64,000 nucleotides of DNA from Marinobacter gelidimuriae (GTDB lineage: Bacteria > Pseudomonadota > Gammaproteobacteria > Pseudomonadales > Oleiphilaceae), in contig NZ_KB889875.1 of assembly GCF_000372805.1 (NCBI RefSeq), forward strand, positions 588 to 64,587, given 5' to 3'. The notes below the pieces were generated by a model. The model was not told where the DNA came from, made no database searches, and saw only the letters and a list, made by a program, of their open reading frames with translations. Shown here in pieces: positions 23,907 to 61,874 of this stretch. Positions within the stretch are counted from its first letter, which is position 1; each line of letters starts with the position of its first letter. Made by a program: the position numbers and the translations under genes.

Positions 23907-24016
23907 GAGAGAGCGGGGAACGGCTTTGCGAAAATTTGCGTAGCCATGGATGGCGGAGCCTAAGCGCCCCATGGATGGGCTCGAGCGTTTTTCGCAAAGC
24001 CGTTCCCCGCTCTCTC
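23907..24016. repeat. Stem-loop mobile-type repeat element, copy 1 (kdsA-eno gap)
   Basis: This is a 110-nt element. The left arm 23907-23934 and right arm 23989-24016 are perfect inverted repeats of 28 bp (left arm begins GAGAGAGCGGGGAACGG). The 54-nt loop contains GTAGCCATGGATGGC (23940-23954) and a second small palindrome CCCATGGATGGG, so it can fold as a branched structure. The first 20 or so loop bases recur almost unchanged in the copy inside panE, while the arms do not. No T-run follows, so it is not an ordinary terminator. It ends 40 nt before the eno start. Confidence 0.9.
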
Positions 24017-58489: not shown

Positions 58490-60162
58490 TGAGCCACCAG
58501 TCTGACCTGATTGCCGATGATATCGACGCCTACCTGCATCAGCACGAAAACAAGGAACTGCTGCGCTTTTTAACGTGCGGCAGCGTAGACGACGGCAAAT
58601 CTACCCTGATTGGACGGCTGCTGCACGACTCCAAAATGATTTATGAAGACCAGCTGGAGGCGATCCACAACGACAACGCACGGATGGGTAATGCCGGCGA
58701 CGAGCTGGATTTGGCGTTGCTGGTGGACGGCTTGCAGGCCGAGCGCGAGCAGGGCATCACCATTGATGTGGCCTATCGTTATTTCTCGACCGCGCGGCGT
58801 AAATTCATCATCGCCGACACCCCGGGCCACGAACAGTACACTCGCAATATGGCCACCGGCGCCTCCACCTGCGACCTGGCCATTATTTTGATCGACGCCC
58901 GCCACGGCGTGCAGGTACAAACCCGCCGCCACAGTTTCATTGTGTCGCTGCTGGGGCTGAAGCATACGGTAGTGGCCATCAACAAAATGGATCTGGTGGA
59001 TTACAGCGAGGAACGCTACGAGCAGATCAAGGCTGATTATTTGGCGTTTGCCAGTCAGCTGGACTTGCCCGACATCCAGTTTGTGCCTTTGTCGGCGTTA
59101 AAAGGCGACAACGTGGTTAATCGTTCAGAGTTCATGCCTTGGTATCGGGGGCAAGCGTTGATGGAAACTCTGGAAAGTGTGGAGATTGTCCGCGACCAGA
59201 ATTTCGACGCGCTTCGTTTTCCGGTGCAATACGTGAACCGCCCCAACCGGGACTTCCGCGGTTACTGCGGCACCCTGACCGCTGGCGTGGTTCGCCCGGG
59301 TGACGACGTAACGGTGTTGCCGTCCGGTAAGTCATCAAGGGTGAAATCCATTGTGACCTACGACGGCGAGCTGAGCGAAGCTTTCCCGCCCATGTCTGTA
59401 ACTTTGACGCTTGAAGATCAGATTGATATTTCCCGTGGCGACATTCTGGTGCACAGCAAACAGATACCGCAGACGACGGACCGCTTTGATGCCACTTTGG
59501 TGTGGATGGCCGAACAAACGCTGGTGCAGGGTAAAACCTACGACATACAATTGCTCACCGGCCGCGTGGCTGGCGCTGTTACCGCCGTTCGCCACCAGAT
59601 AGATGTGAACTCGCTGCAGCAGGCCGAGGCGAGTACTCTGGCGTTGAACGAAATCGGCCGTTGCGAACTGACATTGGAACAGCCGGTGGTGGCGGATAAT
59701 TACAAGGAATTCCGCGGCACCGGTTCTTTTATTGTGGTGGATCGCTTAACTCACATCACAGTGGCAGCGGGTATGATTCTGCCTGGCTTACAGCAACAAG
59801 GCTACACGCTGCACCACAGCGCACAGGTGACCACAGCGCAAAAAGCCCGACGCTTTGGTCAGCAAGCCGCGGTGATATACATAAAAGGCGAGGCGGATGC
59901 CGCCCGCACGCTGGTTCATACCCTCGAAAAAGTGCTGTTTGACGACGGCCGCGCCGTCGCAACGCTGGAGCACAACAATCTGCAATACAGTGAAGGCTTC
60001 AAAGCATCGCTGGCTCTGGCACTTAAAGCCAACGGCCTGCTGGTGCTGACCGATACCGACACCGGCCACAGCGATCTGACTCTAATCCTGGCGGATTTGC
60101 CAGAGCAGGGCGGGCAAGTGGCCGCTGTATTGGAGCAGCTGCGCGAGCACAAAATCTTGTAA
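58489..60162 (+). CDS. cysN: Sulfate adenylyltransferase subunit 1 with degenerate C-terminal domain
   Basis: The product is 557 residues. The GTPase core has [15 protein letters not shown] (P-loop), [12 protein letters not shown] and NKMDLVD, followed by EF-Tu-like barrel domains to about residue 430. A further 125 residues resemble the APS-kinase part of CysNC fusions ([26 protein letters not shown] aligned on the start of CysC), but the P-loop glycines and lysine are gone. E. coli CysN is 475 residues and CysNC about 630, so this is an intermediate, probably a decayed fusion. ATP sulfurylase activity should be intact; kinase activity should not. Confidence 0.93.
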
Positions 60163-60809: not shown

Positions 60810-61874
60810 CTAAAGAGCTTGTACTCGCTGAACCAGCATTTGGTTTACCGGTGTGGCAATCCCGTGGCGCTGCCCGCACTGCACAAGGTAACCATTAATA
60901 AAATCGATCTCGGTTTTACGCCCTGCGTTTACATCCGCACGCATCGACGAGGTGTTACTGGCCGTGTTTTTGGCGATCGCCTCAATCCGCTCCCGCAGCG
61001 CTTGCGGGGTAGCACGCTCACCGGTATCGGTCTGCAGTAAAGCAGCGATTTCGGAGCATAGCCCGTCAATCGTCTGCCGATACAGCGGCGCATCCACTAT
61101 GGCGCCATTCGGGCAGTCCAGCAGTGCGGTAAACGCATTAATGCCGGCGTTGACCACCAGCTTTTGCCACAGCCGCGGCATAATATTGTTTTCGGCATGC
61201 ACCCGTAACCCGGATTGTGTTAACTGCTGAACCACGAATTCCGTACAGGCATATGCAGAGTCTGTAAGCGGGCCCACCCAGGTATCTCCGACTCCGGCAT
61301 GCACCAACACATCCGGTTCTGGCCGGTTCGCACCCTCGGTGGTGCTGGCCGCCAAAATTGGCCGATCCGGCCAGCGCTCGGCCACTGCCTGCTGACGGCC
61401 CAAACCGTTCTGGAAAAGAACAACCGGCGTGTCTTCGGCAATATGCGGCAGCCAGCCCTCCATAGCTGAAAGCGTATCCCCGGCTTTGGTGGTAACAAGC
61501 AGTAAGCCGACATCGTCAGCGGACTCAATCCAGGGTAAACAGACACGGGTATGTTCGCTCCCAGAGCCTGGCGAAGCCGTCCGGAGGGCGCCCCCGAAAC
61601 CTTGCGTAGCCATGGATGGCGAAGCAGAGCGTACAAGGACGTATTCACAGCGTGTTTCGGGGGCGCCCTCCGGACGGCTGATGCTCCCCCGATGATCGAG
61701 TTCGTTTTCAGGCACAGTATTAGCAGATTCGATAATCTGACGCCCACGATCCAACCGCGGCAAAAACCCACAACGAAAAGACGGCAAAAGGGCGGCCCAT
61801 AGCCGCCCCATTGAACCCGCACCAAGAATGGCGATCTGCCCGCCATCCCCGAAACGCTTAACGTCCACAGTCAC
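60810..61874 (-). CDS. panE: 2-dehydropantoate 2-reductase with in-frame repeat insertion
   Basis: The product is 354 residues. This NADPH enzyme makes pantoate for coenzyme A. NADP loop GAGSMG is at residues 19-24; VTTKAGD, the catalytic Lys in LWQKLVVNAGINAFTALL, and SSMRADVNAGRKTEIDFING are intact. Residues 66-100 (SRPEGAPETRCEYVL through GGALRTA) are encoded precisely by a 105-nt stem-loop repeat (61575-61679) and have no counterpart in ordinary PanE, where this stretch is a loop in the Rossmann domain. PanE is usually about 300-315 residues, so the excess matches the insert. It starts with GTG, 2 nt after valS. Confidence 0.92.
   Translation of the reverse strand: MTVDVKRFGDGGQIAILGAGSMGRLWAALLPSFRCGFLPRLDRGRQIIESANTVPENELDHRGSISRPEGAPETRCEYVLVRSASPSMATQGFGGALRTASPGSGSEHTRVCLPWIESADDVGLLLVTTKAGDTLSAMEGWLPHIAEDTPVVLFQNGLGRQQAVAERWPDRPILAASTTEGANRPEPDVLVHAGVGDTWVGPLTDSAYACTEFVVQQLTQSGLRVHAENNIMPRLWQKLVVNAGINAFTALLDCPNGAIVDAPLYRQTIDGLCSEIAALLQTDTGERATPQALRERIEAIAKNTASNTSSMRADVNAGRKTEIDFINGYLVQCGQRHGIATPVNQMLVQRVQAL
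61575..61679. repeat. Stem-loop mobile-type repeat element, copy 2 (inside panE)
   Basis: This is a 105-nt element with perfect 26-bp inverted arms (61575-61600 and 61654-61679; left arm begins AGCCGTCCGGAGGGCGCC) and a 53-nt loop. The loop starts with TTGCGTAGCCATGGATGGCG, nearly identical to the copy between kdsA and eno; it also shares the GCGT next to the right arm. The arms have no similarity to the other copy. The length is 35 codons, in phase with panE, with no stop in the gene frame. Confidence 0.92.

Follow-up and report, generated by a model that had tools for sequence, protein, structure and literature searches.

The panE gene of the Marinobacter genome studied here contains, in frame, one copy of a dispersed palindromic element. 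We consider it reasonably likely that this element is a dispersed three-way junction which entered panE in a single old insertion, serves on its own strand (E+) as a putative CsrA/RsmA RNA, has its arms matched by template switching, and spreads in a manner similar to the YPAL/RU-2 repeats. The evidence comes from the window (the whole stretch of 64,000 nt that was analyzed), from panE orthologues within the genus and from copies of the element in related genomes.

The palindrome in panE and its insertion

The open reading frame (ORF) that carries the palindrome was identified as PanE/ApbA with family profiles, scoring above the cut-off with Pfam ApbA and ApbA_C and with TIGR00745. The features of the window are as follows, where E+ is the strand reading GCCATGGATGGC, which in panE is the plus strand of the window and antisense to the gene:

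60810–61874, minus strand: panE (2-dehydropantoate 2-reductase), an ORF of 354 amino acids of which residues 66–100 are element-encoded
61575–61679, plus strand (E+, antisense to panE): core of the palindromic element, from the covariance model match and folding
61575–61600, plus strand: left arm of P1, 26 nt; the arms vary between orthologues with complementarity kept
61654–61679, plus strand: right arm of P1, 26 nt, in inverted-repeat pairing with the left arm
61601–61627, plus strand: hairpin P2 (CTTGCGTAGCCA-TGGA-TGGCGAAGCAG), apical GGA at 61614–61616, with covarying loop pairs
61629–61651, plus strand: hairpin P3 (GCGTACAAGGACGTATTCACAGC), apical GGA at 61637–61639, from covariation and consensus fit
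23907–24016, plus strand: second, intergenic copy, with perfect 28-bp arms (23907–23934 and 23989–24016) and a 54-nt loop

The arms of the panE copy are complementary at 26 of 26 positions and enclose a 53-nt loop, and the total of 105 nt corresponds in phase to codons 66–100, as the initial annotation had described. By chance, 26-bp inverted arms without a mismatch and at most 100 nt apart are expected approximately 2e-9 times in a 64-kb sequence of the same composition. Folding of the palindrome DNA gave a z-score of -7.7 relative to shuffles (0/200 shuffles as stable), and the copy matches the family covariance model at 114 bits (E 4e-22), a model of which the sequence itself is part. The additional statement that the element is free of stops in the other frames did not hold: four of the six frames are stop-free, and each strand has one frame with a stop.

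Among the 61 genomes of the genus searched, 10 carry the segment (loci L038–L047). Twenty further panE loci were fetched, which brings the loci examined to 30 of the 61 genomes, and the insert is absent from all 17 of the twenty that were aligned. In a tree of nine insert-bearing and 17 insert-free PanE sequences, from which the insert columns were left out, the insert rows form one clade (100/99), and the presence of the insert is explained by one change. This comparison of orthologues shows the panE insertion to be a single, old event in ancestral Marinobacter. The proposal of an in-frame insertion with the catalytic part intact and with most relatives lacking the insert is thereby upheld, whereas a recent insertion peculiar to the strain is contradicted by its ten carriers.

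By hand count, the distance between FLPR and PW in PanE is 61 residues in the shortest carriers (L044) versus 26 in L049, and the net gain on the alignment, both arms included, is 35 residues or 105 nt. Directly N-terminal to the element-encoded segment, the protein of the own genome has approximately 14 further lineage-specific residues. The initial annotation had suggested aligning orthologues in search of a clean gap at residues 66–100; a gap is present in the insert-free rows, but it is not clean, since the element-encoded EYVLV is lined up with the native SYRF strand and the borders of the insert are therefore blurred. Derivation of the arms from the target site was rejected as a general account, as panE gained both arms, though some empty sites keep one arm.

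Two carriers have modified the segment. The panE of G026 lost 16 residues (48 nt) in a deletion that apparently ran from one GGCGAAGC repeat to another; the hairpin is broken as a result, which the species tolerates. The panE element of G004 (L046) has a further palindromic insert inside its loop, in frame, so that the reading frame is kept.

A dispersed family of three-way junctions

The own genome contains seven exact copies of the core pattern and nine copies according to the covariance model. Two of the seven lie within the window, and the intergenic one is located upstream of a gene readable by eye as enolase. At no more than one mismatch, other genomes contained 37 (M. salexigens HJR7, G022), 36 (uncultured Marinobacter, G060), 31 (M. 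aromaticivorans D15-8P, G008), 30 (Marinobacter sp. DY40_1A1, G040), 23 (M. maritimus CK47, G034), 17 (G045), 7 (G004) and 2 (G026) copies. A pattern scan matched at least 120 stretches, at least 112 of them from Marinobacter and at least 8 from Planctomycetota, and a search for the P2 pattern in 114 class-level genomes matched the own genome only. When 54 genomes from other genera of the order were sampled, the covariance model matched 15 of them at E ≤ 0.001, with up to 69 matches per genome.

The Planctomycetota loci, from metagenome-assembled genomes (L216, L218, L252, L260, L269, and others), have a different palindrome with conserved arms (GGGGTTGCCCGTG..) that shares the AGCCATGGATGGCGNAGC hairpin. 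In the seven of eight loci viewed, the letters of the P2 hairpin alone are common to these possibly related palindromes and the Marinobacter element; the arms and outer loop are unlike.

With a crude ORF caller, the 63 locus groups were found in convergent (20), tandem (24), divergent (4) and overlapping (11) contexts or inside an ORF (3), with one undetermined. Orientation of the element to tandem genes is weakly biased (16 sense, 8 antisense, among the 63 groups). The one solid case of in-frame fusion is panE; eight other candidate ORFs gave no Pfam match.

Some copies are arranged in a regular manner. Five model matches in the same orientation form a tandem array with approximately 227-bp spacing (G214:C1:94420-95430). 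Inverted pairs of copies approximately 700 bp apart surround a small gene in several species (G008:C1:346067-346785, G045:C5:17828-18546, and G060:C1:1390923-1391641); that such pairs are the ends of a larger transposon was rejected, as the gene between them at L129 is an ordinary 187-aa ORF that, on inspection by eye, does not resemble a transposase. Plasmid or phage carriage was likewise discarded when the 60-nt consensus gave no match. Y1_Tnp matches numbered 13 in G000 and 22 in G004 (seven element copies each) versus 0 in G022, G008, G060, and G040. Mobilization by RAYT/Y1 enzymes likewise received no support: PF01797 was found in 5 of 10 genomes, but in none of the copy-rich genomes G022, G008, G060, G040, and G052.

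For the analysis of the fold, 222 unique elements were picked by the P2 pattern and arms of at least 18 pairs, so the presence of P2 and arms among them is partly by construction; in the own genome and five relatives, 150 of 156 copies passed the arm filter. The arms, mostly 25–30 bp long, are copy-specific in sequence, and the loop (53 nt in 184/222, up to 58 nt) is common to the copies. Mutual information was calculated for 181 elements with 53-nt loops. In the absence of a given structure, 23 of the 24 arm pairs ranked top, the 24th being invariant, followed by the loop pairs 25-51, 26-50, 31-46, and 29-48. The pair 55-73 scores as well, yet is a G.A mismatch in 162/181.

Covariation was assessed on an alignment of 58 elements, out of 79 that passed a diversity filter. 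With the given structure, 94.8% of the cells are paired (70.6% shuffled, at most 43.4% slid), the covariation score is 0.636 (0.147 shuffled, at most 0.113 slid), and 28 of the 39 pairs have changed on both sides (versus 22.2). Further standard pair types were no higher than in shuffles of these 58 elements (76 versus 75.4, 235/500). RNAalifold, unaided, returned 34 pairs in an unchanged layout. The consensus of P2 is NN.GC GGA GCCA-TGGA-TGGC GGA GC NN and that of P3 is GCG TAC-(ANGGAC)-GTA TTCAC AGC. The covariation analysis shows the family to be a three-way junction, in which the long arms P1 are predicted to hold two small hairpins, P2 and P3, that present ANGGA.

Mismatches within the arms of the 222 elements are G.T in 81, A.C in 14 and other in 44 cases (p ~1e-12 if independent), and the G.T:A.C ratio is 16:3 where both neighboring genes run in the opposite direction. 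As judged from these mismatches, the asymmetry shows that folding of the E+ strand matters, regardless of the direction of the neighbors.

Arm matching and the constraint on the panE copy

Outside panE, we compared 117 orthologue pairs in the same orientation (strict set; the pairs are mutually dependent). Among their arm pairs, both partners had changed in 747 and a single partner in 100 (53 G.T, 7 A.C, 40 other), while 44 were irregular and 2327 unchanged. Divergence was 0.069 in the loops and 0.177 in the flanks, and paired arm change amounted to 0.232 per pair. A further 37 orthologue pairs, in 12 of the 36 multi-member groups, have opposite orientations. In L095 and L197, the left flank and the arms are alike and the loop is inverted; most of the other opposite pairs may have arisen by re-insertion, since their near flanks differ too.

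Homogenization of arms together with spacer inversion is given as the signature of polymerase template switching in the accessible text of PMC8604942. The rate of paired change, which is at least that of the flanks, and the G.T share of 1.5% of arm pairs, less than would be expected if RNA pairing were all that is selected, favor templating of one arm by the other; purely compensatory selection would be expected to proceed more slowly and to leave more G.U pairs. As far as the accessible text of PMC8604942 and PMC8794818 goes, template switching between inverted repeats has both hallmarks, arm homogenization and spacer inversion, in common with our element, but the published cases concern yeast strains and short repeats, whereas the element has 25–30-bp arms, divergence between species and a frozen loop.

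Template switching could by itself keep the arms perfect in a selfish or neutral relic that has no function and whose segment the protein tolerates. The paired arm changes, which are not below the flanks, and the occurrence of loop inversions agree with such a relic, as do the loss of half of the element in G026 and the nested insert of G004 with the frame kept. We regard it as unlikely nonetheless, because template switching of the arms leaves the loop unprotected, yet the panE loop differs at 50 of 1484 sites (0.034) versus 1220 of 2910 (0.42) at fourfold sites (8 orthologues, 28 pairs); the covarying pairs within the loop and the G.T:A.C asymmetry also speak against it.

In the same eight orthologues, pS is 0.029 and pN 0.041 in the 18 loop codons, compared to 0.505 and 0.091 in 228 downstream codons, making pS in the loop 17-fold lower than in the remainder of the gene, and five of the six variable loop sites are nonsynonymous. 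Of the 728 arm pairs in the 28 comparisons, 132 have changed on both sides and 35 on one side. Within the loop, positions 5/24 are C-G in L038 and L043 and T-A in the other six orthologues, and positions 7/22 are T-A in L038 and G.G in the remaining ones. A loop that is nearly frozen at silent sites, between arms that change pairwise, points to constraint on the nucleic acid and not on the peptide; on these orthologue counts, constraint on the panE copy is shown to act at the nucleic-acid level. Coding compatibility, for which the initial annotation had suggested the element may be selected or tolerated, is not what these values show to be conserved.

The alternative that the peptide was domesticated, with for instance RCEYVLV selected in place of the native SYRF beta-strand in the coenzyme-binding domain, appears improbable to us, as the silent loop sites are as frozen as the other sites. 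RCEYVLV is invariant in 9/9 aligned insert-bearing rows, the hairpin-broken G026 included, and a structure model from the 26-row alignment (pLDDT 82.0, pTM 0.81), whose top solved-structure match is 1ks9, the ketopantoate reductase of E. coli, has a strand at residues 75–82. This strand may be an echo of the alignment, which places EYVLV on the native strand, and the flanking parts (residues 44–71 and 85–104) have a pLDDT below 50. A model from the nine insert-bearing rows alone reached a pLDDT of 39.9, too poor for judging the segment. The extra segment anticipated as a new surface loop is present in the 26-row model, mostly at pLDDT below 50.

Recognition of the E+ hairpin as single-stranded DNA instead of RNA, by a transposition or replication enzyme following a REP/IS200-like logic, would suit a strand asymmetry and conservation that are independent of neighbor-gene direction, but we hold it to be quite improbable, since old copies shared between species should decay after insertion, yet the fold is kept, and Y1_Tnp genes are absent from the copy-rich genomes G022, G008, G060, G040, and G052.

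GGA hairpins, known relatives and the proposed role

The reading we prefer, an RNA of the E+ strand, takes its putative function from the two apical GGA motifs. The CsrA consensus obtained by SELEX is RUACARGGAUGU, with GGA mostly within a hairpin loop (PMC7652899, accessible text). In P3, which was free of selection during the search, GGA is present in 222/222 elements and forms a GGA hairpin in 213/222. Two GGA hairpins were found on E+ in 209/222 elements, on E- in 0/222, and in 70 of 11100 shuffled loops. The best fit to the consensus is 12/12 positions in 17 elements and 11/12 in 87 (104/222 together), and the opposite strand of the 222 never exceeds 9/12; in the panE copy, GTACAAGGACGT in P3 matches at 11/12 positions. 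At least two hairpin sites like RUACARGGAUGU, as looked for in a CsrA/RsmA-binding RNA, are thus a property of the family. Of 51 palindromes picked by the covariance model in the own genus and 12 other genera, 48 carry a pair of GGA hairpins on one strand and 0 on the other, a result that is partly circular at the order level, where a model with fixed GGA picked the loci. In the other genera P2 and the arms are rewritten and the two GGA hairpins remain. The gene csrA is present in 16/16 genomes searched, which does not discriminate, as three of these that lack an element match have csrA too.

Several observations count against this reading. The P2 stems in other genera are at least 7 bp, longer than the usual stems of SELEX ligands (at most 4 pairs in the accessible text of PMC7652899), and the panE mRNA, to which the copy is antisense, carries the strand without GGA hairpins. 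The weak orientation bias relative to tandem genes, the lack of an excess of further standard pair types, the low G.T share in the arms and the broken hairpin of G026 also weigh against it. A CsrA role of the panE copy would require antisense or read-through transcription; the convergent neighbor of panE, a cysN as judged by eye, terminates at 60162, which is 1413 nt from the element. Based on the ANGGA loops, the consensus fit, the matches to TwoAYGGAY described below and the presence of csrA, we propose that the elements are probably two-site CsrA/RsmA docking RNAs.

The TwoAYGGAY RNA (RF01731; Weinberg et al., 2010, PMC2864571) likewise has, in its published description as far as accessible, two adjacent ANGGAN hairpins inside a long, poorly conserved outer stem. 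It is predicted to bind CsrA (PMC4333381, accessible text) and belongs to the same Rfam clan as CsrB (CL00106). Two hairpins within an outer stem are found in our family as well, with loop letters ANGGA and not strictly AYGGAY. The RF01731 model scored 38.9 bits with L352 (another genus), 36.6 with L008, 33.4 with L007 and 30.3 with L015; no element match reaches the gathering score of 43, and the window has 0 matches at gathering. Three of the seven own-genome copies match, L002, L005, and L006 do not, and the panE copy has no match up to E 10. The accessible text of PMC2864571 presents TwoAYGGAY as a candidate RNA from human gut, gammaproteobacteria and Clostridiales, rather than as a dispersed element with a copy within a gene. 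Matches to Rfam miRNA families (mir-296 and others) were taken as chance hairpins.

Also similar are the YPAL/RU-2 repeats of Yersinia and Erwinia carotovora, which the accessible text of PMC2229807 and PMC2759123 describes as mobile, with variable target duplications, and sometimes fused in frame; YPAL is also listed among the stem-loop families of Y. pestis (PMC2267715, accessible text). Like our element, they are palindromic, present in tens of copies and mostly intergenic, with a few in ORFs (De Gregorio, 2006, via PMC2229807 and PMC2759123, in part). In a hairpin scan of the RU-2 sequence as printed in the accessible source, the P2-like CCGCGCCAAGGATGGCGCGG and the P3-like TACATGGATGTA were found on the same strand, as here. 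They differ in length (about 168 bp, versus a core of 105–111 nt). Target duplications are 3–26 bp in the accessible descriptions of YPAL/RU-2, and none was established for the Marinobacter element. Among 19 candidate empty sites, of which 15 alignments were viewed, one was clean (L141 versus L206) and the others were one-armed, ambiguous or misaligned. The accessible text on YPAL/RU-2 makes no link to CsrA; nor was a published link between YPAL, TwoAYGGAY, and CsrA found in the accessible open-licence literature, or a described Marinobacter repeat among its titles. The Yersinia sRNA family Ysr224 (RF02770) matches the strand opposite to E+ at 16.8–26.3 bits (gathering 70) in L350, L352, L353, L354, and the window, which suggests that Ysr224 may be antisense of a YPAL copy.

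Rickettsia palindromic elements (RPE) were reportedly found by Ogata in 2000 to be inserted in frame in proteins. The accessible text of PMC2229807 describes palindromes of 105–146 bp fused in frame in conserved proteins, as in panE. Likened by description, our family differs from RPE in that its genus is free-living, most of its copies lie between genes and it is the nucleic acid that is constrained, and it does not share their in-frame habit. The earlier view that in-frame cases are otherwise rare in free-living gammaproteobacteria is not supported, given that enterobacterial ORFs are known to contain RU-1, RU-2, and RU-3 (Delihas, 2007, PMC2759123, accessible text).

In the preferred reading, the single insertion into the panE gene of an ancestral Marinobacter added a net 105 nt in frame to the loop region that separates the VTTKA motif from the first cofactor-binding stretch, and the protein tolerates it. 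Its functional form would be the E+ RNA, both GGA hairpins of which would bind a CsrA/RsmA dimer, and the genome would thereby carry dozens of small putative CsrA docking or titration sites, with the panE copy read from antisense or read-through transcripts. The arms would be kept matched mainly by DNA polymerase re-copying one arm from the other, a process that would occasionally invert the loop, and the element would be a miniature mobile element comparable to YPAL/RU-2, spread by a putative enzyme.

More tentatively, and as a possibility to which we lend somewhat less than even weight, YPAL and TwoAYGGAY could be branches of one mobile miniature RNA family that seeds the genomes of many genera of the order with dozens of putative two-site CsrA docking sites. 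The panE copy would then be a structured antisense RNA that has a function, runs through the panE coding sequence and has been kept throughout the history of a Marinobacter clade. If true, the family would wire loci into the Csr/Rsm network or titrate it, and would join a mobile palindromic repeat (YPAL/RU-2) with a CsrA-type motif (TwoAYGGAY), which are separate in the accessible literature so far. Buffering of CsrA/RsmA by dozens of dispersed sites, and template switching versus compensatory selection in long stems, become testable questions. The panE gene provides a natural experiment, in which one set of letters has to encode a protein and also to fold as a nucleic acid, and the demands of the fold prevail: silent sites are frozen, whereas amino-acid changes are tolerated.
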